DNA of 64,000 nucleotides from Malaciobacter pacificus (GTDB lineage: Bacteria; Campylobacterota; Campylobacteria; Campylobacterales; Arcobacteraceae). The notes under the pieces are model-generated. The model ran no database searches, had not been told where the DNA came from, and was given only the letters and a program-made list of their open reading frames with translations. Shown piece after piece: positions 10,588 to 40,940 of the stretch; the stretch's first letter is position 1, and every line of letters begins with the position of its first letter. The DNA lies in assembly GCF_004214795.1 (NCBI RefSeq), contig NZ_CP035928.1, positions 682,001-746,000 of the forward strand, in the 5' to 3' direction. The translations under genes and the position numbers were made by a program.

Positions 10588-10612
10588 CATCTTGTATCTT
10601 TTAAGATACAAT
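10584..10612 (+). promoter_or_regulatory. Near-consensus promoter and palindromic operator of the TA pair
   Basis: TTGACA (10584-10589), a 17-base spacer and TACAAT (10607-10612) form a nearly perfect sigma-70 promoter, unusual in this AT-rich window. A palindrome with 9-bp arms (TTGTATCTT and AAGATACAA, centre TT) covers 10592-10611 and overlaps the -10 box. That is the expected position of an operator for the HTH antitoxin. The expected transcription start coincides with the toxin ATG at 10619. Confidence 0.75.
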
Positions 10613-10618
10613 TTCTTT

Positions 10619-10918
10619 ATGTATTTAATAAAACAAACAAATATCTTTTCAAAATGGCTATCAAAACTCAAAGATACTCAAGGTAAAGTTGCTGTATTAA
10701 GAAGAGTTGAGAGAATGAAATTAGGAAACTTTGGAGATCATAAATCAGTTGGTAATAATATAAATGAACTTAGAATTCCAACAGGTCCAGGATATAGAGT
10801 TTACTATACTTTAAAAGATGATGAAATTATTGTTTTATTAATTGGTGGAGATAAATCATCACAAAGTGATGATATTAAAAAAGCAAATGAGATTTTAAAG
10901 GAGCTTGAAAATGAGTAA
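10619..10918 (+). CDS. RelE-superfamily toxin, HI1419/Gp49 type
   Basis: 99 residues. The motif run GDHKSVGNNINELRI, GPGYRVYYT and VLLIGGDKSSQ is typical of the phage Gp49/HigB-like toxins found upstream of HI1420-type antitoxins. By family knowledge they cleave mRNA on the ribosome. I chose the ATG at 10619 because it matches family N-termini. The alternative TTG at 10592 lies inside the promoter spacer. No Shine-Dalgarno sequence precedes 10619, so the message may be leaderless. The 3-prime end overlaps the antitoxin start by 8 bases. Confidence 0.88.
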   Translation: MYLIKQTNIFSKWLSKLKDTQGKVAVLRRVERMKLGNFGDHKSVGNNINELRIPTGPGYRVYYTLKDDEIIVLLIGGDKSSQSDDIKKANEILKELENE

Positions 10919-11195
10919 TGTAGAACTTACAAACTTTGATATAGCACAATATCTTGATAATAAAGAAGTAATAGCTGAATATCTATCTCAAATTTTAGCT
11001 GATGGTGATATGGATGAATTACTTGAAGCTCTAGGAAATATTGCAAAAGCAAAAGGTATGAGCCAAATTGCAAGTGAAACTGGATTAGGTAGAGAAAGTT
11101 TATATAAAACTTTTCATAAAGGTACAAAACCTAAATTTGATACAATTATGAAAGTAATTAGTTCACTTGGAGTTAAAGTCCAAGTAACAGCTTAA
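10911..11195 (+). CDS. HTH antitoxin, HI1420 type
   Basis: 94 residues. The N-terminal half (FDIAQYLDNKEVIAEYL) and the helix-turn-helix (GMSQIASETGLGRESLYKTF, then TIMKVISSLGVKV) match the HI1420 addiction-module antidote family. It should bind the toxin and repress the promoter through the palindrome at 10592-10611. A strong AAGGAG lies 8 bases before the ATG, in contrast to the toxin gene, which would favour antitoxin synthesis. A TTG at 10905 in the same frame is a weaker start. Confidence 0.9.
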   Translation: MSNVELTNFDIAQYLDNKEVIAEYLSQILADGDMDELLEALGNIAKAKGMSQIASETGLGRESLYKTFHKGTKPKFDTIMKVISSLGVKVQVTA

Positions 11196-11210: not shown

Positions 11211-11291
11211 AATGGTATTGGATTGCATTTTGATAAAATTGATGAAGACTTATCTGTTGAAGGTTTAATTAGAGACTTTGGAAATACATAA
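11211..11291 (+). pseudogene. Relic: C-terminal tail of a DUF2442 protein
   Basis: A 26-codon open frame without a start encodes GLHFDKIDEDLSVEGLI and then a stop. This resembles the ending of DUF2442 proteins (the pattern HWPxIDEDLSVEGLL), a family often found beside toxin-like DUF4160 genes. Nothing of the N-terminal part remains. Its last bases run into the first copy of the duplicated uvrB upstream DNA. Confidence 0.5.
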
Positions 11292-11420
11292 AAAAGTGAT
11301 TACTGATTATAGAAAAAGAAATTTTTCAGTAGAATCTCAATACTCTCCAGCAGGAGATCAACCCCAAGCAATCGAAAAACTGAGTAATAGTATCCTTGAA
11401 GGTAATAAGTTTAATACTCT
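11283..11420 (+). repeat. Direct repeat copy 1: duplicated uvrB upstream region and 5-prime end
   Basis: Bases 11283-11330 match 11636-11683 exactly (48 bases), and 11331-11420 match 11711-11800 with one difference (T at 11385, C at 11765). A 27-base stretch present in the functional copy (11684-11710), holding part of the -10 box and the start codon, is missing here. The gap is bounded by AGT on both sides. The copy can encode only the first 30 or so UvrB residues in a dead frame (open 11278-11508) that then runs into unrelated sequence. Confidence 0.9.
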
Positions 11421-11541
11421 CAGATTTCAAATGAAGATTTTAAAAGTAAATTTAATTTATGAAATATTAATTTTAAAAGTTGACACTAGAGGTGATATTT
11501 ATAAATAATTTATAGTATTAAAAAGATAAAATTAAACAAAT

Positions 11542-11652
11542 AGAAATAAATTAAAAGGTTCATGGGATGAGTATTTTACAAATGCTAAAGAACATCATTT
11601 ATCAAGATCAGCTCTTATTCAAAAAGCAGCATCTGAATACATAAAAAAGTGA
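11542..11652 (+). pseudogene. Relic: C-terminal part of a ribbon-helix-helix-like antitoxin
   Basis: A 36-codon open frame bounded upstream by a stop encodes KGSWDEYFTNAKEHHLSRSA, followed by LIQKAASEYIKK and a TGA. The SRSALIQKAASEYI part resembles the second helix of CopG/RHH-type antitoxins. There is no start codon or promoter-proximal part. The last bases lie inside copy 2 of the uvrB upstream repeat. The family assignment is tentative. Confidence 0.4.
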
Positions 11653-11800
11653 TTACTGATTATAGAAAAAGAAATTTTTCAGTATAATCCCACATGACAA
11701 AATTTAAAGTAGAATCTCAATACTCTCCAGCAGGAGATCAACCCCAAGCAATCGAAAAACTGAGCAATAGTATCCTTGAAGGTAATAAGTTTAATACTCT
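11636..11800 (+). repeat. Direct repeat copy 2: promoter and 5-prime end of functional uvrB
   Basis: The partner of 11283-11420. This copy keeps the 27 bases with TATAAT and the ATG, so it is the working 5-prime end. Between the copies lie 215 bases that hold the RHH relic and otherwise AT-rich sequence without an intact gene. A TTGACA near 11476 may be a promoter relic. Confidence 0.9.
11683..11688 (+). promoter_or_regulatory. -10 box of uvrB, directly before the start codon
   Basis: A perfect TATAAT ends only 5 bases before the uvrB ATG at 11694. The predicted transcription start falls on or next to the ATG, which implies a leaderless or nearly leaderless mRNA. There is no Shine-Dalgarno sequence between them. 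Confidence 0.6.
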
Positions 11801-13667
11801 TTTAGGTGTTACAGGTTCAGGTAAAACCTATACTATGGCAAAGGTTATTGAAAAAACTCAAAAACCAACACTTATTATGACTCATAATAAAACACTAGCT
11901 GCTCAGTTATACTCTGAGTTTAAACAGTTTTTCCCAAACAATCATGTGGAATACTTCATCTCATACTATGATTATTATCAACCTGAAGCTTATATTCCTA
12001 GAACTGATCTGTTTATAGAAAAAGATAGTTCTATAAATAGTGAATTAGAAAGATTAAGACTTAGTGCAACAGCATCACTTCTTTCTTTTAATGATGTAAT
12101 AGTTATCGCTTCAGTTTCAGCAAACTATGGTTTAGGTAATCCTACTGAATATAAAGAGATGGTTCAAAGAATCGAAGTAGGATTTGAATACTCTCAGAGG
12201 GAATTTTTACTAAAACTTATAGAAATGGGATATAAAAGAAACGACAAATTTTTTGATAGAGCTGATTTTAGAGTAAATGGTGATGTAATTGATATCTACC
12301 CAGCATATTATGATGATGAGTTTATTAGAGTTGAATTTTTTGGTGATGAGGTTGAATCAATCACAAAACATGAGTATCTAACAAACAATAAAATCAAAGA
12401 AGTTGAAGATGTGATTATCTATTCTGTTAATCCCTTTGTTGTTACAAATGATAGATTAGCAGTTGCCGTTAAACAAATAGAAGAAGAGTTAGATGAAAGA
12501 CTAGAACAACTTTATAGTGAAAACAAACTTGTAGAGTATCAAAGACTAAAACAAAGAGTAGAGTTTGATTTAGAGATGATTGAAGGAACAGGTGCTTGTA
12601 AGGGAATTGAAAACTATGCACGACACTTAACTGGTCAAAAGCCAGGTGAGACTCCATATTCACTTATGGATTATTTTGAAACGATGAATGATGACTTTTT
12701 ACTAATAGTTGATGAATCACACGTTTCACTTCCTCAGTTTAGAGGGATGTACGCAGCTGATAGAAGTAGAAAAGAAGTACTTGTAGAGTATGGATTTAGA
12801 CTTCCAAGTGCACTTGATAATAGACCTTTACAGTTTGATGAGTTTATGAGTAAAAAAGCTTCATATTTGTTTGTAAGTGCTACTCCAAATGAACTTGAAA
12901 TAGAAAAATCAAGCGTAGTTGCAGAGCAAATCATCAGACCAACAGGACTTCTTGACCCACTAATTGAGATAAAAGATAGTGAATATCAAGTAGAGACACT
13001 ATATGATGAACTTAAAAAAGTAATAGAGAAAAATGAAAGAGCCTTAATCACTGTTTTAACAAAAAAGATGGCAGAAGAGCTTGCAAGTTATTATCAAGAT
13101 TTAGGTATCAAAGTTAAGTATATGCACAGTGAAATTGATGCAATTGAAAGAAATCAAATCATCAGAGAGTTAAGACTTGGAGAGTTTGATGTTTTAATTG
13201 GTATTAATCTACTTAGAGAAGGGCTTGATATCCCAGAAACTTCACTTGTAGCAATACTTGATGCAGATAAAGAAGGATTTTTAAGAAGTAGAACTTCACT
13301 AATACAGACAATAGGAAGGGCTGCAAGAAATCAAAATGGTAGAGTAATACTATTTGCAAAAAGAATCACAGACTCTATGCAGTATGCTATTGATGAAACA
13401 AGTAGAAGAAGAGAAATCCAAGAAGCCCATAACAAAAAGCATGGTATTACTCCAACTTCAACAAAAAGAAGTTTAGACCAAAATCTAAAAATGGAAGAGT
13501 ATGATGATGTTGCTTGGAAGAAAAGCAAGCTAGAAAAAATGCCAGCAAGTGAGCGAAAGAAAATCTTAGTTGAGTTAAATAAACAGATGAAAAAAGCCGC
13601 CCAAGACTTGAATTTTGAAGAAGCAATTAGACTTAGAGATGAGATAGATAAGATAAAGAAGTTATAG
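11694..13667 (+). CDS. uvrB: Excinuclease ABC subunit B
   Basis: 657 residues, full length. UvrB is the helicase-like damage-verification subunit of nucleotide excision repair, loaded by UvrA and recruiting UvrC. The Walker A motif GVTGSGKT is at residues 38-45, the damage-probing hairpin region [12 protein letters not shown] follows, the Walker B/DEAD-type box is [12 protein letters not shown], helicase motif VI is QTIGRAARN, and the C-terminal UVR coiled coil ([20 protein letters not shown]) binds UvrC. Its first 35 codons and upstream DNA are duplicated at 11283-11420. It is not next to other uvr genes but is flanked by two TA modules. Confidence 0.97.
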
Positions 13668-13700: not shown

Positions 13701-13991
13701 ATGCAAGTAACAAAAGAAACTATATTGTCTTTTTTAAAAGAGCATAAAAAAGAATTTCAGAAAAAATATTTGGTAGAAAAAATCGGACTTTTTGGATCTT
13801 ATGCAAGAGATGAAGCAACCGAAGATAGTGACATAGATATTCTTGTAAAAATGCCTTCAAGTTTTGATAACTATTATGATTTCAAAGAGTATTTAGAAGA
13901 AAAACTTCAGAAAAAAATTGATTTAGGATTAGAAAAAAGTATTCGTAGTTTTATTGCAGAAGATATAAAAAAGGACATAATATATGTCTAA
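13701..13991 (+). CDS. mntA: MNT-type nucleotidyltransferase antitoxin
   Basis: 96 residues. A minimal polymerase-beta-fold nucleotidyltransferase with GSYARDEATEDSDIDILV, an exact GSx10DxD catalytic motif. By family knowledge MntA antitoxins inactivate the partner HEPN RNase by adding AMP units to a tyrosine. The 8-base overlap with the HEPN gene and the antitoxin-first order fit this class. Confidence 0.88.
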   Translation: MQVTKETILSFLKEHKKEFQKKYLVEKIGLFGSYARDEATEDSDIDILVKMPSSFDNYYDFKEYLEEKLQKKIDLGLEKSIRSFIAEDIKKDIIYV

Positions 13992-14424
13992 AAGAAAAAT
14001 AGAATTCTATATATTAGACATATTAATTGCAATTGATAAAGTAGAAAGATATACAAAAAAATTTTCAAATGGTACTGAATTACTAAATGATGAACTAAGT
14101 TGGGATGCAACTATTAGAGAGTTAGAAATTATTGGCGAAGCAACTAAAATATTATTGAATGAATCTTTTTTAGAAGACAAAAAGTATAGAAGAATCGTAG
14201 ATTTTAGAAATCAGATAAATCATGGTTATTTTGGTATTGATGAAGATATAGTTTGGGATGTTATTAAAAATAAATTAGTTGAATTTAAAACAGATATTGA
14301 TGAATTAATTTATTTAAAAAATATTGATATTATTCTCACAATTGAAATATTTGAAAAAGAAAACTTAAAACAAAAATCAGTAATAAAGTTTTTACAGCAA
14401 TTAAAAAATTTAAATAGTAAATAA
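13984..14424 (+). CDS. hepT: HEPN (DUF86) RNase toxin
   Basis: 146 residues. The helical HEPN fold carries the catalytic and modification motif RNQINHGY (RNxxxHxY) at about residues 79-86. Arginine and histidine form the RNase site, and the tyrosine is the expected target of AMPylation by MntA. Family members usually end soon after the HEPN helices. This one has a lysine-rich C-terminal extension of roughly 35 residues (from about residue 110) of unknown role. It lies between uvrB and nth. Confidence 0.88.
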   Translation: MSKRKIEFYILDILIAIDKVERYTKKFSNGTELLNDELSWDATIRELEIIGEATKILLNESFLEDKKYRRIVDFRNQINHGYFGIDEDIVWDVIKNKLVEFKTDIDELIYLKNIDIILTIEIFEKENLKQKSVIKFLQQLKNLNSK

Positions 14425-15755: not shown

Positions 15756-16001
15756 TTATTTACCTTTATTTTGAAGTCTTGCTTTAAATGCATCTTTTGA
15801 TAGATATTTACTAGAAGTTGATACAGCCTTTGGCAAAAACTCATCTTCTGCTACAGCTTGTGTTCTTTTTACAAGTGAGCTTTTACCTATTGGTTTATTA
15901 TCTACTTTTATATCTTTTATCAAATCAGATTTTAGATTCTTTAAAATCATCAAAACCGTATCTTTATTTTTATTATCCACATCTAAAACTATTTTCGCCA
16001 A
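15756..16001 (-). CDS. Small protein of unknown function, antitoxin-like size
   Basis: 81 residues. The N-terminal half (VLDVDNKNKDTVLMILKNL) looks like a small alpha/beta unit, and the C-terminal part is basic and ends in SKDAFKARLQNKGK. Its size and basic tail resemble antitoxins, but I see no defining motif. Its promoter region (15991-16078) is the first copy of the direct repeat that is found again in front of ugd, with TATAAT on the minus strand at 16023-16028. Confidence 0.6.
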   Translation of the reverse strand: MAKIVLDVDNKNKDTVLMILKNLKSDLIKDIKVDNKPIGKSSLVKRTQAVAEDEFLPKAVSTSSKYLSKDAFKARLQNKGK

Positions 16002-16078
16002 TTTTTCGCCTTTTTAATTTGGATTATATTATCTTTTTTATTTATATTGAATAACTTAAAAATCTAAAAGAAGCAAAT
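15991..16078. repeat. Direct repeat copy A: duplicated intergenic promoter
   Basis: About 88 bases closely match 16454-16545. The shared core reads TTTTTAATTTGGATTATATT, followed by ATCTTTTTT, then a divergent few bases and an ending like AAAAATCT...GAAGCAAA. Copy A contains the start of the 81-residue gene and its minus-strand -10 box. It lacks the plus-strand TATAAT that copy B uses for ugd. Confidence 0.85.
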
Positions 16079-16099
16079 ATTCTAAAATATTTTATAAAA

Positions 16100-16177
16100 A
16101 TGAATGAGGGAGTAAATGAGGGACTATATAAGGGAGTAAATGAGGGAGTAAAATCTCTGTACAATCTCACGATTTAG
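16100..16177 (+). pseudogene. Relic with NEGV repeats, possibly from an ATP-binding/HTH protein
   Basis: A 25-codon frame encodes MNEGVNEGLYKGVNEGV and a short tail before a stop. Runs of NEGV are typical of the linker before the C-terminal helix-turn-helix in AlbA_2/RecG-like ATP-binding proteins of this phylum, so this may be a relic of one. At the DNA level it is a short tandem array of GGGAGTAAATGA. The 3-prime end overlaps the convergent RHH gene. Confidence 0.35.
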
Positions 16178-16391
16178 ATAGTTTTCTCATATCTTTTAAA
16201 CTAATTGTTTCATTTTTCTCTAAACTTCTCTTTTTTGCAATTTGTAAATCAAGATGATCAAAATAAAATTCTAAGGCTTGTGAAACTAAGGCACTTTTAT
16301 TTTGATTTAATTCTTTTGCAAATTCTGTCACTTCATCTGATAAACTTTTTGGCATGGAAACTAGTAGTTTTGTATTTTTAGTTGTTATCAT
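16167..16391 (-). CDS. Orphan ribbon-helix-helix (CopG-like) protein
   Basis: 74 residues. The RHH pattern is clear: a short strand (TKLLVSMPKSLSDEV), then two helices with NQNKSALVSQALEFYFDHLD. It resembles the RHH antitoxin at 40961 but has no toxin partner downstream, where only the NEGV relic overlaps it. It is probably transcribed from the minus-strand -10 box of repeat copy B. An inverted repeat at 16424-16441 is a likely operator. Confidence 0.8.
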   Translation of the reverse strand: MITTKNTKLLVSMPKSLSDEVTEFAKELNQNKSALVSQALEFYFDHLDLQIAKKRSLEKNETISLKDMRKLSKS

Positions 16392-16423
16392 AATCTAATC
16401 CTATGGTTTTATATATACATTAG

Positions 16424-16441
16424 TATATCTAAAAAGATATA
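16424..16441. promoter_or_regulatory. Inverted repeat, likely operator of the orphan RHH gene
   Basis: TATATCT and AGATATA arms of 7 bp are separated by AAAA, 33 bases before the RHH start codon. RHH proteins usually bind such paired sites in their own promoters. Confidence 0.45.
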
Positions 16442-16453
16442 AATCTTAGAATA

Positions 16454-16545
16454 ATTTTCGCCAATTCTTTGCCTTTTTAATTTGGATTATATTATCTTTT
16501 TTGTTTATATTAAATATAATAACCTAAAAATCTTAAGGAAGCAAA
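16454..16545. repeat. Direct repeat copy B: promoter region of ugd
   Basis: The partner of 15991-16078. It carries a minus-strand -10 box at 16486-16491, which would drive the RHH gene, and a plus-strand TATAAT at 16515-16520 for ugd. The copies flank the RHH gene and the NEGV relic like the ends of a cassette. Confidence 0.85.
16515..16520 (+). promoter_or_regulatory. -10 box of ugd and the start of the polysaccharide locus
   Basis: TATAAT lies 31 bases before the ugd ATG, with AAGGAAG as ribosome site. It is the first clear rightward promoter of the polysaccharide gene block. Confidence 0.55.
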
Positions 16546-16551
16546 CATCAT

Positions 16552-17556
16552 ATGAAGATTGCTATTGCTGGAACAGGCTATGTAGGACTTTCAAACGCTC
16601 TTTTACTATCACAACAAAATGAAGTAATAGCACTAGATATAATCCCTCAAAAAGTAGAACTCTTAAACAACAAAAAATCACCAATCAAAGATAAAGAGAT
16701 AGAAGAGTATCTACAAAAAGATAACATAAACTTCACAGCAACCTTAGATAAACAAAAAGCCTACCAAAACGCAGACTTCATAATCATAGCAACACCAACA
16801 GACTATGACCCACAAACAAACTACTTCAACACAAAATCTGTAGAATCAGTAATAAAAGATATCATAGAAATAAACCCAAACACAACAATAGTAATAAAAT
16901 CAACTATTCCAGTAGGATACACAAAAGAAGTATCAAAAAAATTCAATACAAATAATATAATCTTCTCACCAGAATTCCTAAGAGAAGGAAAAGCACTATA
17001 TGATAATCTATACCCTTCTAGAATAATAGTAGGTGAAAAATCAAAGCGAGCCCAAACCTTTGCAAAACTACTAGAACAAGGTGCTAAAAAAGAAAACATT
17101 GATATATTATTCACAAACTCAACAGAAGCAGAAGCTATAAAACTATTTTCAAATACATATCTAGCCATGAGAGTAGCATACTTCAATGAACTAGACTCTT
17201 ATGCTCAAACTCACAACTTAGATACAAAACAAATCATAGATGGAGTTGGATTAGACCCAAGAATAGGAAATCCCAAGGTAGTTGGTATTTATAGACTGAT
17301 TATGAAAAGTGGAAGTGATAACTTTAGACAAAGTGCTATTCAAGGCATCATGAAAAGAATCAAAGCAAAAGGTATCGAAGTAGTTATCTATGAACCAGAA
17401 CTAAAAGACAAAGAGTTTTATAACTCAAAAGTCATAAACGATTTAGAAGAGTTTAAACTCCTAAGTGATTTAATAGTAGCAAATAGAATGGAATCACCTC
17501 TAGAAGAGATTAAAGAAAAAGTTTATACTAGAGATATTTTTAATAGTGATAGTTAA
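16552..17556 (+). CDS. ugd: UDP-glucose 6-dehydrogenase with an internal deletion removing the catalytic cysteine
   Basis: 334 residues. The Rossmann start [48 protein letters not shown] and the C-terminal [13 protein letters not shown] match E. coli-type Ugd of about 388 residues closely. At residues 234-245 the sequence goes from LDPRIGN straight to PKVVG. Related enzymes have about 54 residues in between, including GYGGYCLPKDTKQ with the catalytic cysteine and the lysine for the thioester. The deletion keeps the frame, so a stable but catalytically dead protein is likely. It would otherwise make UDP-glucuronate for surface sugars. First gene of the polysaccharide locus; manC follows 15 bases later. 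Confidence 0.9.
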
Positions 17557-17571
17557 GAAAAGGACCAAAAA

Positions 17572-18993
17572 ATGACAAACATAATCCTATGCGGAGGAAG
17601 TGGAACAAGATTGTGGCCAATAAGTAGAACACTTATGCCAAAACAATTCGTAAAACTATTCTCTCATAATAAAAAAATAAAATCATTGTTCCAATTAACA
17701 GTTCAAAGAAACTCAAAAATATGTGATAGTCAATTTATAGTCTCAAATACAGAACAATACTTCCTAGCCCTAGATCAACTTGAAGAATTAAGTAAAACAA
17801 ATAATAAATACCTCCTAGAACCAATAGGAAGAAATACTGCCCCTGCTATTGCCCTAGCTTGTATGCAATTAGATAAAGATGAAATAGTCCTAGTAACTCC
17901 AAGTGATCACCTAATAAAAAATGAAATAGAATATGAAAAAGTTCTATTAAAAGCAAAAGAATTAGCTGAAGATAATAACCTAGTAACCTTCGGTATTACC
18001 CCAACATTTCCTGAAACTGGATTTGGATATATTGAATCACAAAATGAGTTTGATGTAAAAGCCTTCCATGAAAAACCAGACTTAAATACAGCAACTTCCT
18101 ACCTAAAAGCAGGAAACTACTACTGGAATAGTGGTATGTTTATGTTTAAAGCAGGTGTGTTTTTAAATGAACTAAAAAAATACTCTCCAAATATTTATGA
18201 AACATCACTAAATGCCCTAAATAATGCAAATAAAGAAAATGACCTAACTAGAATAAAACATACTGATATGATAAATATCCCAGAAGATAGTATAGATTAC
18301 GCTGTAATGGAAAAATCTTCTATAGTAAAAGTAATACCCTCTAATATAAACTGGTCAGATGTAGGTAGCTTTGATGCCCTTTATGAAGAACTTCCATGGA
18401 GTGAAACGGAATCCTGCAGCGAAGCAAAGGTAAAAGATGAAAATAATAATACATTAAATGAAAATCATATATCAATAGATTCTAAAAATAATCTAATATA
18501 TGGTAATGATAGAATAATAGCAACAGTAGATGTAGAAGATCTTATTGTAATAGATACAGGAGATGCACTACTAGTATCAAAAAAAGGCTCTTCTCAAAAA
18601 GTAAAAAAAGTAGTAGAAAAACTAAAACAACAAAACTCCCAACTACATAATATCCACCTAACAGGACATAGACCATGGGGAACATATACAGTACTAGAAG
18701 ATAAAAGTGGATATAAAATAAAAAGAATAGAAGTAAAACCAGGAAAAAGACTATCCCTTCAAAAACACTTCCATAGAAATGAACACTGGATAGTAGTATC
18801 AGGAACTGCAACAGTAACAGTAGGAGATAAAAAACAATATATCAGACCAAATGAAAGTACATATATAAAAATGGGAGAACTTCATAGACTAGAAAATGAA
18901 GGAAAAATACCAGTAGTACTAATAGAAGCCCAAGTTGGTGAGTATACAGGTGAAGATGATATTGTTAGGGTTGATGATGATTTTAGGATGTAA
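17572..18993 (+). CDS. manC: Mannose-1-phosphate guanylyltransferase / mannose-6-phosphate isomerase
   Basis: 473 residues, the type II bifunctional form. The N-terminal nucleotidyltransferase has the signature LCGGSGTRLWPISR at residues 6-19 and the FHEKPD and YYWNSGMF segments. The C-terminal cupin (about 360-473) holds the isomerase site with RPWGTYTVLE, QKHFHRNEHW and GELHRLEN. It makes GDP-mannose for surface polysaccharide. No GDP-mannose dehydratase is seen in this window, so mannose itself or a product of genes elsewhere is the likely use. Confidence 0.95.
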   Translation: MTNIILCGGSGTRLWPISRTLMPKQFVKLFSHNKKIKSLFQLTVQRNSKICDSQFIVSNTEQYFLALDQLEELSKTNNKYLLEPIGRNTAPAIALACMQLDKDEIVLVTPSDHLIKNEIEYEKVLLKAKELAEDNNLVTFGITPTFPETGFGYIESQNEFDVKAFHEKPDLNTATSYLKAGNYYWNSGMFMFKAGVFLNELKKYSPNIYETSLNALNNANKENDLTRIKHTDMINIPEDSIDYAVMEKSSIVKVIPSNINWSDVGSFDALYEELPWSETESCSEAKVKDENNNTLNENHISIDSKNNLIYGNDRIIATVDVEDLIVIDTGDALLVSKKGSSQKVKKVVEKLKQQNSQLHNIHLTGHRPWGTYTVLEDKSGYKIKRIEVKPGKRLSLQKHFHRNEHWIVVSGTATVTVGDKKQYIRPNESTYIKMGELHRLENEGKIPVVLIEAQVGEYTGEDDIVRVDDDFRM

Positions 18994-19153
18994 AATTTGC
19001 AAAAAATCAATAAAAATATAAAAATGAGTCATTTCTGAGACATTTGTATAGTACAATACATGATGAAAATATAACGGTAAAATATACTTGTTTATTATTT
19101 ACTAAGTTGTAAGAAGATAAAATATTTGTCTTAAAAATAGGGAGTAATGAAGT

Positions 19154-20287
19154 TTGAAAAAAGTCCTACTAGTATTCGGAACAAGACCAGAAGCAATAAA
19201 AATGGCACCATTAGTAAAAGCCTTTGAAGAAGAGAGCTCAATTGAATCAAAAGTATGTGTAACAGCACAACATAGAGAAATGCTTGATCAAGTTCTTGAA
19301 ATGTTTGATATTAAACCTGATTATGATTTAAATATTATGAAACCAGGTCAAGATCTTTTTGATGTAACTTCAAATGTTCTTTTGGGATTAAAAGAAGTAT
19401 TAAATGACTTTAATCCTGATGTAGTTTTAGTTCATGGTGATACAACTACTACTAGTGCATCTTCACTAGCTGCTTTTTATAATAAAATAAAAGTAGGACA
19501 TGTTGAAGCAGGACTCAGAACAGGTGATTTATACTCTCCATGGCCAGAAGAAGCAAATAGACAAATAACAGGTGTATTAGCAAACTATCACTTTGCTCCC
19601 ACAACAACATCTCAAAATAATCTTCTAAAAGAAAATAAAGATCCAAAAAATATAATAGTAACTGGTAATACAGTTATTGATGCACTTTTTTTAGCATTAG
19701 ATAAAATAGAAAAAAATGAAGAATTAAAAACTAAAATTGTAAATTCTATAAACTCTCAATATGAATTAAAAGAAAATAAAAAACTAATCTTAGTAACAGG
19801 ACATAGAAGAGAAAACTTTGGAGATGGATTTATAAATATTTGTGAAGCTTTAAAAACACTTGCAATAAACAATCCCGATGTAGATATAGTATATCCAGTA
19901 CACTTAAATCCAAATGTACAAAAACCAGTTAAAGAAATACTATCAGATACTAAAAATGTATTTTTAATAGAACCACTTCAATATGAACAATTTATATATA
20001 TGATGAATAAATCATATTTTATAATAACAGATTCAGGAGGAATACAAGAAGAGGCACCAAGTTTGGGAAAACCTGTATTAGTTATGAGAGATACAACAGA
20101 GCGACCAGAAGCAGTGGAAGCTGGAACTGTAAAATTAGTAGGAACAAATAAAGAGACTATTATCAAAGAGGCTCAAAATCTTATAGATAATGAAGAAGAA
20201 TACAACAAAATGTCAAAAGCACACAATCCATATGGAGATGGTAAGGCTTGTGAGAGAATTGTAAATTTTATTAAGGAAACAAAATAA
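19154..20287 (+). CDS. wecB: UDP-N-acetylglucosamine 2-epimerase (non-hydrolysing)
   Basis: 377 residues. It converts UDP-GlcNAc to UDP-ManNAc. The start [19 protein letters not shown], the HGDTTTT and [10 protein letters not shown] segments, [10 protein letters not shown] and [14 protein letters not shown] with RDTTERPEA are all diagnostic. The start is TTG with GGGAG 9 bases upstream. A 160-base gap after manC carries possible -10 boxes (TACAAT at 19052-19057, TAAAAT near 19078), so a new transcript may begin here. It pairs with the wecC that follows after one base. Confidence 0.96.
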
Positions 20288-20288
20288 T

Positions 20289-21485
20289 ATGAATCAAAAT
20301 AAAAAGATATGTGTAATAGGACTTGGATATATAGGTTTACCAACAGCAGCACTTTTGGCAAATAGAGGTTATAGTGTACATGGAGTAGATGTAGTTCAAA
20401 GTACAGTTGATACTATCAACCAAGGTAAAATTCATATTGTAGAACCAGAACTTGATACATTTGTACAAAGTGCTGTAAATAGTGGAAAATTAAAAGCAAG
20501 CCTAAAACCTGATATTGCAGATGTATTTATCATAGCTGTTCCTACTCCTTTTCATGATGGGCATGTACCAAATGTGGATTATGTAGTAAGTGCTACAAAA
20601 GCAATAACTTCTTATGTAAAAGATGGTGATATAGTGATACTTGAATCAACATCACCAGTAGGAACTACAGAGCTTGTAGAAAAGACTCTAAAAGAAGAAG
20701 ATGTAGATACAAGCAAACTTTATATAGCTCACTGTCCTGAGAGAGTACTTCCTGGTCATATCATGAGAGAACTTGTGGAAAATGATAGAATCGTAGGTGG
20801 TCTTACACCAGAAGCTACAGAAAAAACTGTAGAATTTTATAAAACTTTTGTAAGTGGTGCGGTACTTTCAACAGATGCAAGAACAGCTGAAATGGCAAAA
20901 TTAACTGAAAACTCTTTTAGAGATACAAATATAGCTTTTGCAAATGAATTATCTATGTTATGTGATAAGTTTGATATAAACGTATGGGAATTAATATCTT
21001 TAGCAAATAGACACCCAAGAGTAAATATACTTCAACCAGGTGCTGGAGTAGGAGGTCACTGTATAGCTGTAGATCCATGGTTTATAGTTCATGCAGGTGG
21101 TGAAACAGCTAAGATGATAAGAACAGCAAGGGAAGTAAATACATATAAAACAGAGTGGGCTATAGAGAAGATAAAAAATGCTGCACTAGCTTACGAAGTT
21201 GAAAATGGAAGAAAAGCAAAAGTAGCTTGTATGGGATTAGCATTTAAACCTGATATTGATGACTTAAGAGAATCACCAGCACTTTATATAGCTAGAAGAC
21301 TTAAAGCTGATGGACTAGATGTATTAGCAGTTGAGCCGAATATAGAGAGTCATAAAGAATTTGAAATAGTAAATTATAAAGAGGCTATAAAACAAGCCGA
21401 TATAGTGACATTTTTAGTAGCACATAAAGAGTTTAAATCTTTAGAAATTCAAACTGATTTAGACTTTTGTGGAGTTTTAAATTGA
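20289..21485 (+). CDS. wecC: UDP-N-acetyl-D-mannosamine dehydrogenase
   Basis: 398 residues. It oxidises UDP-ManNAc to UDP-ManNAcA using NAD. The Rossmann loop is VIGLGYIGLPTAALLANRG, and the catalytic cysteine is intact in GAGVGGHCIAVDPWF at about residues 253-267, unlike in the ugd of this locus. The C-terminal part AFKPDIDDLRESPALYIA is typical. With wecB and wecG it indicates a ManNAcA residue in the polymer. Confidence 0.96.
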   Translation: MNQNKKICVIGLGYIGLPTAALLANRGYSVHGVDVVQSTVDTINQGKIHIVEPELDTFVQSAVNSGKLKASLKPDIADVFIIAVPTPFHDGHVPNVDYVVSATKAITSYVKDGDIVILESTSPVGTTELVEKTLKEEDVDTSKLYIAHCPERVLPGHIMRELVENDRIVGGLTPEATEKTVEFYKTFVSGAVLSTDARTAEMAKLTENSFRDTNIAFANELSMLCDKFDINVWELISLANRHPRVNILQPGAGVGGHCIAVDPWFIVHAGGETAKMIRTAREVNTYKTEWAIEKIKNAALAYEVENGRKAKVACMGLAFKPDIDDLRESPALYIARRLKADGLDVLAVEPNIESHKEFEIVNYKEAIKQADIVTFLVAHKEFKSLEIQTDLDFCGVLN

Positions 21486-21545
21486 TTACGTATATCAAAA
21501 TAAATTCTTTAATAAAAATAATGTTTTAACTAAGAAAAACTATTA

Positions 21546-23075
21546 ATGACCCAAAACAACAAACGAATAGCCAAAAACACAATGTTTCTTTACTTCCGTA
21601 TGATTATCATCATGGCAGTAGGTTTTTATACTGTAAGAGTCGTATTAGATATACTTGGTGTAACAGATTTTGGTCTTTACAATCTTGTGGCTAGTTTTGT
21701 TCTTCTCATGGCTGTTTTGAATAATACTTTAACAGGCGGTACACAAAGATTTTTGACTTTTGAAATAGGCAAAGGTGACTTAGTAAAACTCAAACAGACT
21801 TTTTCAACTGCTGTAATGATTCATATCGCTTTAGCTTTATTAATTTTACTTTTAGGTGAAACTATTGGTCTTTGGCTATTGTATGAAAAGATAAGTATCC
21901 CAGCTGATAGATTTGATGCTGCATTTTGGGTTTATCAGTTTGCTATATTTTCTATTATGGTCACAGTTATGCAAGTACCTTACCACGCTTTGATTATAGC
22001 TCATGAAAGGATGCATATATTTGCCTATGTAAGTATTGTTGAAGCTATTTTAAAACTTTTTGTTGTTTATTTACTGTTGGTTATATCATTTGATAAATTA
22101 ATAATTTATGGTATTTTGATGTTTTTAGTTTCATTAACAATTGCTTTATATTATAGAATTTATGTGTTAAAAAATTATGAAGAGTCTCATTTTACACTTA
22201 TGTTTGATAAACATATTATTAAATCTATGATGCAATTTTCAGGTTGGAATTTATTTGGAACATTAGGTGCAATGTTATCTAATCATGGAGTATCTATACT
22301 TTTAAATCTATATTTTGGACCTGTGGCAAATGCTGCACATGCTATTTCAATGCAAGTGAGTAATGGATTAAATCAATTTGTAAATAGTTTTCAAACAGCT
22401 ATAACACCACAAATAACTAAACTATATGCATCAAATAAAATAAATGAACTAAATAATTTTTTATATCAAAATACTAAGTATGCATTTTTATTACTTTGGA
22501 TAATGGTATTACCAATCATTTTAAAGTTAGATTATGTTTTATCTGTATGGTTAACGCAAATACCTGAAAATACAATTATTTTTACAAAATTACTTATGAT
22601 ATATGGTTTAATGTATTCTTTTATACGTCCAATGGTTATGGCTATACAAGCAACTGGAAAAGTTAAAGGTATTCAAATTAGTGCTGGAGTGTTATTGATT
22701 CTTGTTTTACCAATTTCATGGGTTTTATTAGAAAATGATTTTCCTATATATTCTCCATTTATAGTGATGCTTTGCATGTGGATTTTTCATATTTTATTAG
22801 AAATATTTTTCTTAAAAAGATTAATAGGTTTTTCATTGATAAGCTTTTTAAAAATATCTTTTGCTCCTCTTATAATCATTATAAGCATTTCTTTACTATC
22901 ACTAAATTATTTATCTAATTTGATAGATAATAATATTTATCAACTATTACTTTTTTTTGTAGTGTCTATATTTGTAAATTTTATTTTAATCTATTTTATA
23001 GGTATAGATTTACAAACAAGAAAAAAACTAAAAATTATTTTTAAAAATAAGTTTAAATTACAAGGAAATAGATGA
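21546..23075 (+). CDS. Polysaccharide flippase, Wzx/MATE-like
   Basis: 509 residues with about 12-14 predicted membrane helices across its length. The family start FLYFRMIIIMAVGFYTVRVV, then FGLYNLVASFV and GGTQRFLTFE, matches oligosaccharide flippases of the Wzx superfamily. It should move the lipid-linked repeat unit across the inner membrane. Its 3-prime end overlaps the FrhB-type gene by 4 bases. Confidence 0.92.
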   Translation: MTQNNKRIAKNTMFLYFRMIIIMAVGFYTVRVVLDILGVTDFGLYNLVASFVLLMAVLNNTLTGGTQRFLTFEIGKGDLVKLKQTFSTAVMIHIALALLILLLGETIGLWLLYEKISIPADRFDAAFWVYQFAIFSIMVTVMQVPYHALIIAHERMHIFAYVSIVEAILKLFVVYLLLVISFDKLIIYGILMFLVSLTIALYYRIYVLKNYEESHFTLMFDKHIIKSMMQFSGWNLFGTLGAMLSNHGVSILLNLYFGPVANAAHAISMQVSNGLNQFVNSFQTAITPQITKLYASNKINELNNFLYQNTKYAFLLLWIMVLPIILKLDYVLSVWLTQIPENTIIFTKLLMIYGLMYSFIRPMVMAIQATGKVKGIQISAGVLLILVLPISWVLLENDFPIYSPFIVMLCMWIFHILLEIFFLKRLIGFSLISFLKISFAPLIIIISISLLSLNYLSNLIDNNIYQLLLFFVVSIFVNFILIYFIGIDLQTRKKLKIIFKNKFKLQGNR

Positions 23076-24370
23076 GTTTCAATATTATAAAAACTACTGT
23101 ACAAAAAGATCAATGTATAGGTTGTGGAACTTGCGATGCTATTTGCCCCGTAGATGTTTTAAAAATGGATTTTAACTCAATAGGTATGTATGAACCTATT
23201 GAATCAGAGGGTTGTTTAGATAAATGTACACTTTGTATGGATGCTTGCCCTTTTGTAGAAGAGAATAAAGATGAAAAAGAGTTAGCAAAAGATATCTATG
23301 AAGATGAAGAAAATATAAATTTTCATAAAGATTTAGGCTATTTTGTAAATACCTATGAAGTACATAAAAAAGATACTTATGAAAGGTTAAAGTCAGCATC
23401 TGGTGGAGCAGGACATTCACTACTGAAAAATTTACTTGAGCAAAAGCTTGTAGATACAATATTGACAGTAGAATCAAATAATGATCCAGATAAACTTTTC
23501 AAGTTTTCTAACTTTAAAGAGATTAAAGAGTTAGAAAAAATAAGAGGCTCAGTATATTATCCTACAGAAATGTCTGAAGTTTTAGATTATGTTTTGAAAA
23601 ATGATGGAAGATATGCTATTACTACACTTCCATGTTTTGCAAAAGCTATCAGGCTTGCACAAGCTAAAAATAGTAAACTAAGAAAAAGAATCAGATTTAT
23701 CATAGGTCTTGTTTGTGGGCAGATGAAAACAAAGGAGTTTGCCCATGCTTTGGCAAAAGTTGCTATTGGAACAGATAGATTGAAAAAAGTCAATTTTAGA
23801 GTCAAACAAGAAAACAAATCAGCGATAAATTTTGGTTTTGAATTTACAAGTATTGATGAAAAAAAAGTTAATAGACTTTCAAATGCAGATCTCCCTTCAA
23901 AGTTGTGGGGAAGCAGAGCCTTTACTCCAAATGCTTGTAATAGTTGTACAGATGTTTTTGCTCATTGTGCAGATGTAGTTCTGATGGATGCTTGGCTACC
24001 TGATTATATGAAAGATTATAAAGGTCATACTTTAGCAATAGCTCGTACAAATGAAATAGATGAAATTATTTGTAATAGTAATGATGTATCGATTGAAATG
24101 ATTGATTATAATTTAGTATATAAATCTCAAGAAATGGTAGTAGATACTAAAAATAATTATAAATATGGTAATAAAAATTATTTTATTAATAAAATAATAA
24201 AATATAGAAAAGAAATACAAAAACTAAGTAATAGTGGATATGAAGAGAATAAGAAAAAAATTAATTCATTATTAAAAAAAATTAGAGTGATGGGAAAGCT
24301 TTCTAATATCAATAATCTTGAAAGTATTTCAAAAAAAATAGTTAATAAATTTAAAAGGTTTAATAAATGA
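23072..24370 (+). CDS. FrhB-type 4Fe-4S/flavin oxidoreductase of a polysaccharide cluster
   Basis: 432 residues. The N-terminal ferredoxin module has two cluster motifs, CIGCGTCDAICP and CLDKCTLCMDACP (residues about 12-70). The F420 hydrogenase beta-subunit N- and C-domains follow, with the family features ASGGAGHSLL, CFAKAIRLA, GLVCGQMKT and CNSCTDVFAHCADV. The family transfers electrons in archaea, but its bacterial members often sit in surface-polysaccharide loci beside a pyruvyl transferase, as here. The reaction in this setting is not known to me. It overlaps the flippase and the pyruvyl-transferase gene by 4 bases each. Confidence 0.9.
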   Translation: MSFNIIKTTVQKDQCIGCGTCDAICPVDVLKMDFNSIGMYEPIESEGCLDKCTLCMDACPFVEENKDEKELAKDIYEDEENINFHKDLGYFVNTYEVHKKDTYERLKSASGGAGHSLLKNLLEQKLVDTILTVESNNDPDKLFKFSNFKEIKELEKIRGSVYYPTEMSEVLDYVLKNDGRYAITTLPCFAKAIRLAQAKNSKLRKRIRFIIGLVCGQMKTKEFAHALAKVAIGTDRLKKVNFRVKQENKSAINFGFEFTSIDEKKVNRLSNADLPSKLWGSRAFTPNACNSCTDVFAHCADVVLMDAWLPDYMKDYKGHTLAIARTNEIDEIICNSNDVSIEMIDYNLVYKSQEMVVDTKNNYKYGNKNYFINKIIKYRKEIQKLSNSGYEENKKKINSLLKKIRVMGKLSNINNLESISKKIVNKFKRFNK

Positions 24371-25476
24371 AAATAGCAGTACTGACAATGACTTTCAATA
24401 ATAATTATGGAGGGTATTTACAATCATATGCACTAATTGAAACACTAAAAAAACTTGGTCATGAACCAATGTTATTGTTTGTACAGTCAAATGATCTAAG
24501 TCTTAAAACTAAATTTAAAAAATATTTAAAAAGATATTTTTTATCTTATGTAACAACTAGATGGAAGAATGAACGATTTAAAAATATTATTGAAAAAAAT
24601 ACTAAATACTTTGTTGATAGATATATTATACCCAAAACTGATCCAATATACTCATTTGATGATTTTAAAAAGTATGGGGATAAGTTTGATGCTTATATTG
24701 TTGGTAGTGATCAAGTTTGGCGACCTACTATGTATAAGTATATCGACAGGGCTTTTTTTGATTTTGTAATAAATCCAAAAGCAATTTTACTTTCTTATGC
24801 TCCATCATTTGGACTTGATAAATGGGAATTTACTCCGGAGCAAACTTCAAAGTTTAAAAAACAAATTAAAAGATTTAAAGCAGTATCAGTTAGGGAAAAT
24901 AGTGGAGTTTTACTTTGTAAAAATAATTTTGGAATTAATGTTCAGCATGTTCTTGATCCAACTATGCTATTAGAAAAAGATGATTATGATAAAATCATAA
25001 AACAAGAAAATGAATCTGATTTTAATGGTGAATTATTATCCTATATTTTAGATGAAACACACGATAAAAAATATCTTGAGGAGCTAATAGTTTCTACTCT
25101 TGGTTTAAAACCATACAGTATAAATGTTAAATCAAAAGATCCGAATGAGGATATTGAGAAGCAAATTTATCCAACAGTAACTTCATGGTTAAAAGGTTTT
25201 GATAATGCTAAGTATGTAGTAACTGATTCTTTCCATGGCTGTGTATTTTCTATCATATTTAATAAGCCTTTTATTGTATATGGAAATAAAAGCAGAGGAA
25301 TGGCTAGATTTAATTCTATTCTTAAAATATTTGGTCTAGAAGATAGGCTAGTTCTGAATAAAAGTGATATAAATATAGAAAAAATTCAAAGCCAAATTGA
25401 CTGGAAGAAAATAAATTTAATACTAAATAAGTATAAAGTTAGATCTAAAAATTTTTTAATTGATAACTTACAATAA
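24367..25476 (+). CDS. Polysaccharide pyruvyl transferase family protein
   Basis: 369 residues. The start LTMTFNNNYGGYLQSYALIE, the YIVGSDQVWRPTMY motif, SVRENSG, QHVLDPTMLL and the C-terminal TDSFHGCVFSIIFNKPFIV are the landmarks of the PS_pyruv_trans family. Members add pyruvate ketals from PEP to sugars, while some are sugar-chain enzymes of unproven chemistry. Coupling to the FrhB-type gene suggests the two act on the same sugar. Confidence 0.92.
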   Translation: MKIAVLTMTFNNNYGGYLQSYALIETLKKLGHEPMLLFVQSNDLSLKTKFKKYLKRYFLSYVTTRWKNERFKNIIEKNTKYFVDRYIIPKTDPIYSFDDFKKYGDKFDAYIVGSDQVWRPTMYKYIDRAFFDFVINPKAILLSYAPSFGLDKWEFTPEQTSKFKKQIKRFKAVSVRENSGVLLCKNNFGINVQHVLDPTMLLEKDDYDKIIKQENESDFNGELLSYILDETHDKKYLEELIVSTLGLKPYSINVKSKDPNEDIEKQIYPTVTSWLKGFDNAKYVVTDSFHGCVFSIIFNKPFIVYGNKSRGMARFNSILKIFGLEDRLVLNKSDINIEKIQSQIDWKKINLILNKYKVRSKNFLIDNLQ

Positions 25477-25484
25477 GGAATAAA

Positions 25485-26264
25485 ATGCAAGATGATTTAT
25501 TAGGAATATATTATATTTCATTAAAAAAAGATACTCATAGAAGAAATAAAATGTCAAAATCATTTAATGATGAATTTGAAAAAATGAACTATATAGAAGC
25601 AGTTTATGGAAAAAACTTAACTACAGAGGAGTACTTTAATAGAATGAATCATTTTTTTCATAATACTGATAAGTTAATAACTCCTGGTGAGCTTGGTTGT
25701 CTTATGAGTCATGAAAAAGCCTTGAAAAGTTTTATAGATTCAGATTACAAATATGCACTTATTCTTGAAGATGATATAATAGGTACTGAACAAGACATAA
25801 AAGAGATAAGAGATATTATAATTAATTTAAAAGAAGAATTTTTCTTTCATTGTGGTGGAATGGACGGTAGGAAAGCAAGTAAATATATTTTTGGAAAAAA
25901 AATAAAAAAAAATAAAAACATATTTTTATTAGCAGAATTTAGTATTAATCATTTATGGAGGGCATCTTCTTACTGTATTGATAAAAATACAGCTATTAAG
26001 TTATTAAATATATACAAGAATAATATTGCTGTTGCAGATGAGTGGAATAAAATTTTACCAAGACTAAAAGTTAAATCTTATGTAGCAAGTATATTGCTTC
26101 ATCCTATTGAACTTAGTGAGTCCAATCTTGAATCAGATAGATTATTAAAAAAAGACAAGATGACATTGATGAAGTTTTTAACCAAATCAGTTAGGAAAAT
26201 AAAAAACATTTTAAATAAAAAATTTTATAAATTAATTGGGTACAAAAATATTTATAATGATTAA
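25485..26264 (+). CDS. Glycosyltransferase family 25
   Basis: 259 residues. The GT25 pattern is clear: IYYISLKKDTHRRNKM at the start, IEAVYGKNL, TPGELGCLMSHEKALKSF and the metal-binding LILEDDI at about residues 91-97. GT25 enzymes add galactose or related sugars in lipooligosaccharide. It follows the pyruvyl-transferase gene by 8 bases and overlaps the next gene by 8 bases. Confidence 0.92.
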   Translation: MQDDLLGIYYISLKKDTHRRNKMSKSFNDEFEKMNYIEAVYGKNLTTEEYFNRMNHFFHNTDKLITPGELGCLMSHEKALKSFIDSDYKYALILEDDIIGTEQDIKEIRDIIINLKEEFFFHCGGMDGRKASKYIFGKKIKKNKNIFLLAEFSINHLWRASSYCIDKNTAIKLLNIYKNNIAVADEWNKILPRLKVKSYVASILLHPIELSESNLESDRLLKKDKMTLMKFLTKSVRKIKNILNKKFYKLIGYKNIYND

Positions 26265-27510
26265 TAATATTAGATATCTGTCAGGTTTAATTCTTTTAAC
26301 AACTAGTTTGTTTATGCCATATGTATTATATATTTATTGTTCTCTGTTATATTTTTTTTTCTTGTCTGAAAAAATATTTATAAAATATAATTTTTTATTA
26401 TTTCTATTTATAATTACTTTTTTGGTTTCAAGTCGATATGTAGGTTTACTGTGGGATGGCTCAGATGATATGGCTTCCTACTTTTTAGCATATGAACATT
26501 ATACGACCTTTGAAACTGTTCCTGCTATTTCACTATTTTATGCTAAAAATGTTGATATATTATTTGCATATTATTCATATTTTTTGAAAGTATGGAATTT
26601 TAATTTATTTCAATACTATTTTTCCACAATTTTAATAACTTTTATAATTATGTATTTTAGTTATAGAAAAATTTTAACCTTAAAAGAAGCAATTTTTTCT
26701 GTAGTATTTTATATTTTATATATAAAAAGTTTTCAGTTACAATGGCATATTCTCAGATCATCAGTTGCTCTCCCAATACTTTTCATGGCAATTTACTATA
26801 GATCTATTGATGAAACTATAGCAAAAAAATCACTACTTATTTATGTTATTGGTGCGACAATTCATATGTCATCTGCATTATTATTATTACCGCTATTTAT
26901 TTTTGCAAAAAACTTAAGAACACATATTAACTTTATCAAGTACATTAAGATAATATTAAAAATATTATTTGTCTCAATAATTTTATTTTTAATATTAACA
27001 TTAACAGATAATTATGTAGTTAATAAAATAACCGGTTCTTTTGATACTCGTTCTTTTTTTCAAATTAATTCAAATATTATTTATTTAATATTACCATTAT
27101 TTTTAATGGTTACATATGTGATAGTTTTCAAAAAATTAAATTTAACAAATTATTTCATATATAATATTATATTATACAATTTATTACTTATTATAGTAGG
27201 TGTAGTAATAGCAGGAGGGGAGATATTTAGAATTGTTCAGTTTACTTTATTTTTACAACCCATTGTATTTTTAATGATATTACAAAATATTAAAAACTTA
27301 TCGATAAAAATTATATTTTCAATACCAATCATTTTAAGTTTATACCTTGGACATTTATATATTGTAAACCTTAATCAATCTAAATTCTTTTATAAAAGTA
27401 ATCAAGCCCCAATTAATCTAACAGTATATCAAACCTTCCCCCTTCTTATAGAATATTTAGAAAACGATATTCAATATTTTAATGGATACAGATATAAGGA
27501 AAAACATTGA
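26257..27510 (+). CDS. Wzy/EpsG-like polysaccharide polymerase
   Basis: About 417 residues from the ATG at 26257. A TTG at 26236 would add 7 residues. Some 9-11 membrane helices, with periplasmic loops containing GLLWDGSDDMASYFLAYEHY and the conserved-looking QLQWHILRSSVALPILFMA, match EpsG/Wzy-type polymerases. It is the only candidate polymerase in the locus. The base composition is very AT-rich even for this window, as usual for wzy genes. The stop overlaps the next TTG start. Confidence 0.85.
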   Translation: MINNIRYLSGLILLTTSLFMPYVLYIYCSLLYFFFLSEKIFIKYNFLLFLFIITFLVSSRYVGLLWDGSDDMASYFLAYEHYTTFETVPAISLFYAKNVDILFAYYSYFLKVWNFNLFQYYFSTILITFIIMYFSYRKILTLKEAIFSVVFYILYIKSFQLQWHILRSSVALPILFMAIYYRSIDETIAKKSLLIYVIGATIHMSSALLLLPLFIFAKNLRTHINFIKYIKIILKILFVSIILFLILTLTDNYVVNKITGSFDTRSFFQINSNIIYLILPLFLMVTYVIVFKKLNLTNYFIYNIILYNLLLIIVGVVIAGGEIFRIVQFTLFLQPIVFLMILQNIKNLSIKIIFSIPIILSLYLGHLYIVNLNQSKFFYKSNQAPINLTVYQTFPLLIEYLENDIQYFNGYRYKEKH

Positions 27511-28577
27511 AAATCTTATTAATATCAAACATGTATCCATCAAAAGAAACACCTTTTTTTGGTACATTTGTAAAAAATTTTAGAGAACGACTAGAAGATG
27601 AAAATATTACTTTTAAACTTGTAGTTATCAAAGGCAAAGGAACTTCTAAATTAGATAAAATCAAAAAATATTTTAACTTTTTCAAAAATACAATTAGCAA
27701 AGTAAAAGTAGATAACTATGATATGATATATGTACATTATATAAGTCACTCTTTACTACCACTTTTGTTAGTACAACGATATATTAAAAAGCCTCTAGTT
27801 TTAAATGCTCATGGAAGTGATATATTTGTAAACAATAGAATTGGTGGATTTATTCAAAAGCTTGTAACTCCTATTATTAAAAAAGCAGATATGATAGTAG
27901 TGCCATCAGATTATTTTCAAGATGTTATTTACACTAAATTTAATATCTCTAAAGAAAGAATATTTGTTTCTCCATCTGGTGGTATAGATACTAATCTGTT
28001 TAAGCCTCAAGAGATAAAAAAAGAGATATTTACAATAGGATATGTTTCAAGAATAGATAAAGGCAAAGGTTGGGACACTCTACTAGATGCTGTTAATTCA
28101 CTGATGAGTGAAGGTGTAACATTTCGAGTTTTAATTATTGGTGGTGGTGCAGAGGAAAAATCACTTTTGCAAAAGATTGAAGATCTAGAACTTAAAAATA
28201 TAGTGGAGTTTGTCGGACCAAAGCCTCACAATGAGCTTGTAAGCTATTTTAATCAAATGAGTATTTTTGCCTTTACTACTAGGCTTGCAGAGAGTTTGGG
28301 TCTTGTAGGACTTGAAGCTATGGCATGTAGTGTGCCTGTAGTTGGCTCAAACATAGGTGCACTTCCTAGTTATATTAAGGATAACATAAACGGTAAACTT
28401 TTTGAAGTAGGAAATGCTGAAGCTTTAGCAAATAATATTGAACATTTTATCAACATGAATGAAAAAGAATTACAAATGTATAAAAACAATGCACTAAAAA
28501 CAGCGATACTATATGATTCCAAAATTGTAGCTAAAATTTTGTCTTCTAAATTGAAAGGATTTATCGATGAGAAGTGA
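27507..28577 (+). CDS. Glycosyltransferase family 4
   Basis: 356 residues with a GT-B fold. The N-terminal acceptor domain begins LLISNMYPSKETPFFGTFVK, the linker has SPSGGIDTNLF, and the donor domain has GYVSRIDKGKGWDTLLDA, FVGPKPHNELVSYFNQM and the E-x7-E motif within ESLGLVGLEAMACSVPVVG. The start is a TTG overlapping the stop of the polymerase gene, with AAGGA before it. The sugar cannot be told from sequence. Confidence 0.94.
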   Translation: MKILLISNMYPSKETPFFGTFVKNFRERLEDENITFKLVVIKGKGTSKLDKIKKYFNFFKNTISKVKVDNYDMIYVHYISHSLLPLLLVQRYIKKPLVLNAHGSDIFVNNRIGGFIQKLVTPIIKKADMIVVPSDYFQDVIYTKFNISKERIFVSPSGGIDTNLFKPQEIKKEIFTIGYVSRIDKGKGWDTLLDAVNSLMSEGVTFRVLIIGGGAEEKSLLQKIEDLELKNIVEFVGPKPHNELVSYFNQMSIFAFTTRLAESLGLVGLEAMACSVPVVGSNIGALPSYIKDNINGKLFEVGNAEALANNIEHFINMNEKELQMYKNNALKTAILYDSKIVAKILSSKLKGFIDEK

Positions 28578-29259: not shown

Positions 29260-29272
29260 ATCAGGAAAATAT

Positions 29273-30352: not shown

Positions 30353-30389
30353 ATAAAATCTTACTTAATTTTATAAAAGGACTATATAA

Positions 30390-32987: not shown

Positions 32988-32988
32988 T

Positions 32989-36025: not shown

Positions 36026-36051
36026 ATTTATAAAAATTAAAAAAATTATGT

Positions 36052-36057
36052 TATAAT
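36052..36057 (+). promoter_or_regulatory. -10 box of the Ala/Gly-rich gene
   Basis: TATAAT lies 29 bases before the ATG at 36087, with AAAAGGAAT as ribosome site. The gene therefore has its own promoter and can be made in excess over the rest of the locus. Confidence 0.6.
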
Positions 36058-36086
36058 AATGCCAAAATTGAAAAAAGGAATTTAAA

Positions 36087-40838: not shown

Positions 40839-40923
40839 TTTTTATTCCTGTTGTATAAATTTTTCCAATTATACTATGTATTAAATTATTTTATTCATAA
40901 TTGATATTTAAATACAAATACAC

Positions 40924-40940
40924 TACAATTGTATATACAA
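40924..40940. promoter_or_regulatory. Overlapping palindromes with -10 box of the RHH/RelE pair
   Basis: TACAATTGTA (40924-40933) and TTGTATATACAA (40929-40940) are perfect palindromes that overlap. TACAAT is also the likely -10 box. Two adjacent sites suit cooperative binding by the RHH antitoxin encoded at 40961. Confidence 0.6.

Follow-up and report, generated by a model that had tools for sequence, protein, structure and literature searches.

A fragment carrying a toxin-antitoxin (TA) module has, on balance, probably been inserted between orfX and ugd in Malaciobacter pacificus, duplicating about 100 bp of its landing site. The locus lies in the window, the whole 64 kb (64,000 nucleotide) stretch of DNA analysed here, and its features are collected in Table 1 with those of a parallel case at uvrB. 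Several lines of evidence support insertion: the repeat is real and unique; its left part derives from the native orfX 5′ end, which relatives carry singly and without repeats; the two copies have decayed in complementary ways; the insert holds the relB of pairs that are complete in other genomes, together with its own promoter; uvrB offers a parallel; other TA loci of the family are bracketed by copies of neighbouring gene ends; and there is a precedent in the same phylum. Three weigh against it: no empty orfX-ugd site is found among relatives, where orfX faces a TonB-dependent receptor; the copies differ by 11%; and clear duplications of a neighbour account for only about a third of bracketed TA loci.

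Table 1. Features of the orfX-ugd and uvrB loci (positions in the window).
Feature	Position	Strand	Description
uvrB repeat copy 1	11283..11420	+	promoter region and about 37 codons; 27-base internal deletion
insert between uvrB copies	11421..11635	+	relBE relic and RHH-like antitoxin end
uvrB repeat copy 2	11636..11800	+	runs on into full-length uvrB (11694-13667)
orfX	15756..16001	-	81 aa, conserved family protein; TTG start at 16001
copy A	15984..16080		first ~6 codons of orfX, start, ribosome site and intergenic region
NEGV scrap	16101..16178	+	C-terminal fragment (MNEGVNEGLYKGVNEGVKSLYNLTI) of AlbA_2/AAA_4-like ATPase gene
RHH antitoxin, relB-type, orphan	16167..16391	-	74 aa
native relB operator/promoter	16422..16443	-	AGTATATCTAAAAAGATATAAA; minus-strand -10 TATACT; predicted from conservation
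copy B	16447..16548		orfX start cut short (MAKIIL before divergence); intergenic region; ugd ribosome site intact
ugd	16552..17556	+	UDP-glucose dehydrogenase, first gene of polysaccharide locus (Pfam/NCBIfam)

A repeated interval between orfX and ugd

Copies A and B are direct repeats of about 100 bases that flank an RHH gene and a NEGV scrap. An earlier note, made from the sequence alone, had described repeats of about 90 bases on both sides of these two elements, and they withstand scrutiny: the alignment contains 86 identical and 11 substituted positions over 97 bases plus one 5-base gap, and the local alignment score of the flanks is 70, whereas 500 Markov shuffles reached 30 at most. The genome contains no third copy. 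Within the window, the only non-tandem direct-repeat pairs to pass a common filter were this one and the pair at uvrB, and 18 sampled stretches of the same genome (360 kb) held no comparable pair, their matches being limited to tRNA copies, paralogues, tandem repeats in proteins and three weak hits of 40-44 nt.

The repeat unit covers the entire interval from about codon 6 of orfX to a few bases 5′ of ugd, with homology between the copies ending 4 bases before the ugd ATG. Copy A retains the orfX codons and has a decayed ribosome site on its ugd-like side (AAAGAAG, corresponding to AAGGAAG before ugd in copy B); copy B shares the orfX start codon and a few codons, is altered beyond them, and has a plus-strand TATAAT (16515-16520) that is missing from copy A. 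Such complementary decay, seen in one pair of sequences, would fit a single functional interval that was doubled, each copy keeping the half still in use: copy A still serves orfX and copy B now serves ugd. The 11% difference between the copies implies either that the event is old or that the copies come from two lineages.

Promoter-like matches in the region (6, compared with 5.4 in shuffles) were not above shuffles, folding of A and B on either strand was no better than that of shuffles (z +0.06 to +1.5), and a search for known RNA elements returned none.

Origin of the repeat

The product of orfX has no Pfam or NCBIfam match and has homologs in 45 of the 104 genomes of the family. Relatives share the gene order uvrB-nth-membrane gene-orfX; a TonB-dependent receptor gene lies opposite orfX in four of them (G002, G016, G121 and G110), and other genes occupy the orfX-receptor interval in G034 and G120. 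The orfX 5′ ends of G016, G121, G120, G034 and G002 can be aligned with the left part of copy A, so this part of the duplication belongs to the orfX side: it is the native orfX 5′ end, and it is conserved in relatives that have no ugd next to orfX. The suggestion that the repeat is the 5′ region of the downstream gene was thus half right, since copy B does lead into ugd while the left part comes from orfX. The assignment covers this left part, and no source was traced for the right part.

In other genera the orfX region is single copy with a different gene opposite, and self-comparison of the orfX regions of G002, G016, G034 and G120 found neither such repeats nor a tandem intermediate. Neither copy has significant DNA similarity to the ugd loci of relatives. 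The search for an empty orfX-ugd site covered a collection in which the genus is represented by the window's own genome.

The polysaccharide locus that begins with ugd is about 20 kb long (16552-36383; ugd, manC, wecB, wecC, wzx-like, glycosyltransferase, export, Wzz and YjbH genes) and separates orfX from the TonB-dependent receptor (36489-38435). The presence of other genes there in G034 and G120 indicates that the orfX-receptor interval is open to insertion and makes it look like an insertion hot spot. A small gene of Ala/Gly-rich repeats with a hairpin-like terminator after it (36087-36383) lies between the polysaccharide locus and the receptor; G034 has a similar gene ahead of ugd (L010). 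Compared with relatives (for example G002), ugd has an in-frame internal deletion at 17260-17280: about 54-66 residues are missing between RIGN and PKVVGIY, among them the GYGGYCLPKD motif, which bears the catalytic cysteine, and the enzyme is probably inactive as a result. A second dehydrogenase of the superfamily, wecC-like, is encoded at 20289-21485.

An orphan antitoxin between the copies

The RHH gene is relB of a relBE-type pair, and six related genomes carry that pair intact. Its protein has a weak NCBIfam RelB-like match (E 3.6e-5) and is 74-93% identical in amino acid sequence to antitoxins in seven genomes, six of which have an intact ParE/RelE toxin of 96 aa overlapping the antitoxin end. 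In the window the native last codons and the overlapping relE have been lost: there is no relE beyond 16167, the linked toxin gene of a type II TA system is missing, and toxin relatives elsewhere in the same genome are only 34-39% identical. An operator-like palindrome with a -10 (TTTATATCTnnnnAGATATACT) upstream of relB is conserved in the six intact relBE loci and in the window, and relB therefore arrived with its own promoter. It had been proposed that copy B supplies the RHH gene with a minus-strand -10 box; a minus-strand TATAAT does exist within copy B (16491-16486), and the gene, having its own operator and -10, has no need of it.

On the branch leading to this antitoxin there are 8 silent and 2 replacement changes, a ratio that argues against long neutral drift, although part of the branch may predate toxin loss. 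The NEGV scrap, to which relB is now joined, shares 90% DNA identity with the NEGV repeat in a G013 open frame of 463 residues, whose protein we read as an AlbA_2/AAA_4-like ATPase, a naming that does not come from a profile match. The insert is foreign to the site: relB lies away from orfX in the relatives read and occupies other sites in seven genomes. Two distant matches to the RHH protein were found on Campylobacter plasmids and none among phages, and PADLOC reported nothing for the RHH protein, orfX, the cognate toxin or the receptor.

A parallel case at uvrB

The uvrB locus is a dead relBE module between two copies of the uvrB 5′ region. The insert joins the end of an antitoxin gene to that of a toxin gene (ILKVDTRGDIYK) and matches relBE-type pairs, mostly intact, from six genomes. 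The repeat copies match the uvrB 5′ region of G002, a member of another genus, in which that region is single, lies some 30 bases away from the gene upstream and has no TA genes. The earlier note had seen the same logic at the two loci, and in outline this is borne out: in each, a TA relic sits between direct copies of site-native DNA and the flanking genes have intact 5′ ends. Both examples are old, eroded insertions, and no end sequence or recombinase shared by the two was seen. The window holds further TA genes, of the HI1419/HI1420 type (10592-11195), the MntA/HepT type (13701-14424) and the RelBE type (40901-41435), as well as a RelE-like gene at 42857-43156.

Direct repeats at other toxin-antitoxin loci

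A survey of TA loci for flanking repeats, as the earlier note had proposed, covered 167 distinct loci of the family (the two in the window, found by the same searches, were excluded) and asked for bracketing direct repeats of 45-300 nt scoring at least 75 bits, with 240 random 3.3-kb tiles as controls. Bracketing repeats occurred at 14 of 167 TA loci and in 6 of 240 tiles (one-sided Fisher p = 0.007 as counted); four of the six positive tiles were pieces of tandem repeats and one was a paralogous gene pair. Restriction-modification loci, represented by C5-methyltransferase genes, had bracketing repeats in 1 of 40 cases when a wider spacing was allowed, and the TA excess over them was not significant (p = 0.17). 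The expected enrichment thus appeared relative to random tiles, although only about a third of the repeats copy neighbouring genes and restriction-modification loci were not significantly exceeded.

The 14 loci are mixed: tandem cassette promoters (L163, L164, L379 and L401), REP- or IS-like elements (L244, L362 and possibly L351), a single attC-like hairpin (L211), and copies of neighbouring gene ends in about five or six cases (L177, L232, L256 and L392, with L387 and L274 less clear). The clear neighbour duplications make up about a third of the bracketed loci; counted alone they occur at 5 of 167 TA loci and in 1 of 240 tiles, a borderline result (p = 0.045) from loci sorted by eye after the data had been seen. 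Neighbour-end copies of 46-150 bp bracket TA loci at, for example, hypF (G095), a transposase end (G021) and the end of an ORF6N-like gene (G072). The hypF case is a weaker, 46-nt duplication of the gene's 3′ end in G095 (L155), flanking a relBE of the same family as the window's relB.

Other arrangements came to light in the survey. L163, L164 and L379 (G024 and G036) are arrays of TA cassettes, each with a similar promoter-bearing leader of 80-150 nt, where recombination between the common leaders might swap cassettes. Two species have different TA pairs at the 3′ end of a sixA-like gene (L274 in G084 and L392 in G072), each pair between its own direct repeats, and this gene end is possibly a recurrent insertion site. 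L211 is a TA pair of the same genome as the window (G000:C1 near 1327077), lying between 69-nt direct repeats (1428-1496 and 2780-2848) with a strong, attC-like hairpin (z -3.0), which hints at integron-type cassettes.

Possible mechanism and alternative explanations

If a TA-bearing fragment was inserted as proposed, it would have entered the divergent orfX-ugd intergenic region in this lineage, with ugd presumably already beside orfX, and about 100 bp of the landing site would have been doubled. Copy A would have kept the orfX 5′ end and copy B the ribosome site and promoter of ugd; with each neighbour retaining its own control copy, neither gene would have been broken. Each copy could later have decayed on the side no longer serving a gene, while the cassette eroded: relE would have been lost and relB joined to the scrap of the ATPase gene. 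The likeliest routes may be one crossover with a circle or joined fragment that brought the cassette together with about 100 bp of site homology, or a template switch during replication with a backward jump of about 100 bp, and neither would require a dedicated enzyme.

The same anatomy could have arisen without the TA genes being the cause of the duplication. It is possible, though rather unlikely, that two haplotypes were joined: the ugd locus would have come later from a sister strain with its own orfX 5′ region (copy B), which was set to the right of a resident orfX-relBE (copy A). The usual neighbour of orfX, the TonB-dependent receptor, now lies 20 kb away at 36489, so the polysaccharide locus is also a newcomer, and 11% divergence would suit two lineages. 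Yet because homology between the copies runs so close to the ugd start, a resident copy A would already have needed a ugd-like leader, and there is no third copy near the far end of the polysaccharide locus. Short tandem duplications are common, and a duplication of the promoter region that came first, with ordinary illegitimate recombination later placing TA DNA between the copies, would give the same final anatomy; this order of events is improbable, as each of the two loci would have had to undergo two independent events, and no tandem intermediate was seen in the orfX regions read.

Two further explanations involve dedicated mobility. The earlier note had raised a shared and possibly undescribed way for small TA cassettes to insert in Campylobacterota, with the end of the target gene regenerated. 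Two cases in one window and the excess of bracketing repeats over random tiles speak for such a TA-specific route, whereas the repeats are heterogeneous, no end sequence or recombinase common to the two window cases was seen, restriction-modification loci are not significantly exceeded, and the pattern has been published for restriction-modification genes. The two parallel cases stand without establishing TA specificity, and a route of this kind seems distinctly improbable. An integron-type cassette flanked by attC recombination sites is hardly credible, even though integrons commonly carry TA cassettes (PMC2654758) and L211 has an attC-like repeat in the same genome. An attC cassette at orfX-ugd was refuted by the folding of A and B, which show no L211-like hairpin, and attC origin was ruled out by the content of copy A, which is orfX 5′ coding and promoter DNA.

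A broader version of the insertion reading, in which Arcobacteraceae-type TA modules spread by a long-target-duplication route with general regeneration of neighbouring gene ends and, in addition, the orphan antitoxin was kept as a regulator of the divergent orfX/ugd interval, is unlikely as a whole; its regulatory part would rest on the ratio of silent to replacement changes given above.

Comparison with known systems

How small TA modules without a transposase move between chromosomal sites is unsettled. If TA genes use the same target-duplicating insertion as restriction-modification genes, one recombination process would explain both, and direct repeats become a testable signature of insertion and of precise loss. 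A limited literature search on TA insertion with target duplication and on TA genes in Arcobacter brought up no paper describing this pattern.

The locus resembles chromosomal relBE/parDE type II modules in its relB-type antitoxin and its autoregulatory-looking palindrome, and intact relatives overlap a ParE/RelE toxin; it differs from them in having no toxin gene and an altered relB 3′ end. Like integron attC cassettes, it is a small TA cassette between direct repeats, but these repeats are not attC-like and derive from the orfX 5′ region. The closest comparison is with insertions accompanied by long, variable target duplications (on the order of 100 bp), described for restriction-modification genes in H. 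pylori from two compared strains (Nobusato 2000, as cited in PMC3874152, PMC3031569 and PMC1643837); a review among these citing papers treats restriction-modification together with toxin-antitoxin systems. The mechanism would accordingly not be undescribed, as had been thought possible. Of the marks of long target duplication, the locus shows direct repeats of the size looked for (about 50-150 bp), a left part that, like the uvrB copies, is native to the site, and a foreign insert. As in the H. pylori cases summarised there, addiction-type accessory genes lie between direct repeats of about 100 bp that copy the target, in the same phylum; unlike them, the passenger is a TA module and is eroded, the copies have diverged by 11%, and no pair of strains offers an empty site. 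At most, then, this is a known mechanism with a new passenger, TA genes in place of restriction-modification genes.
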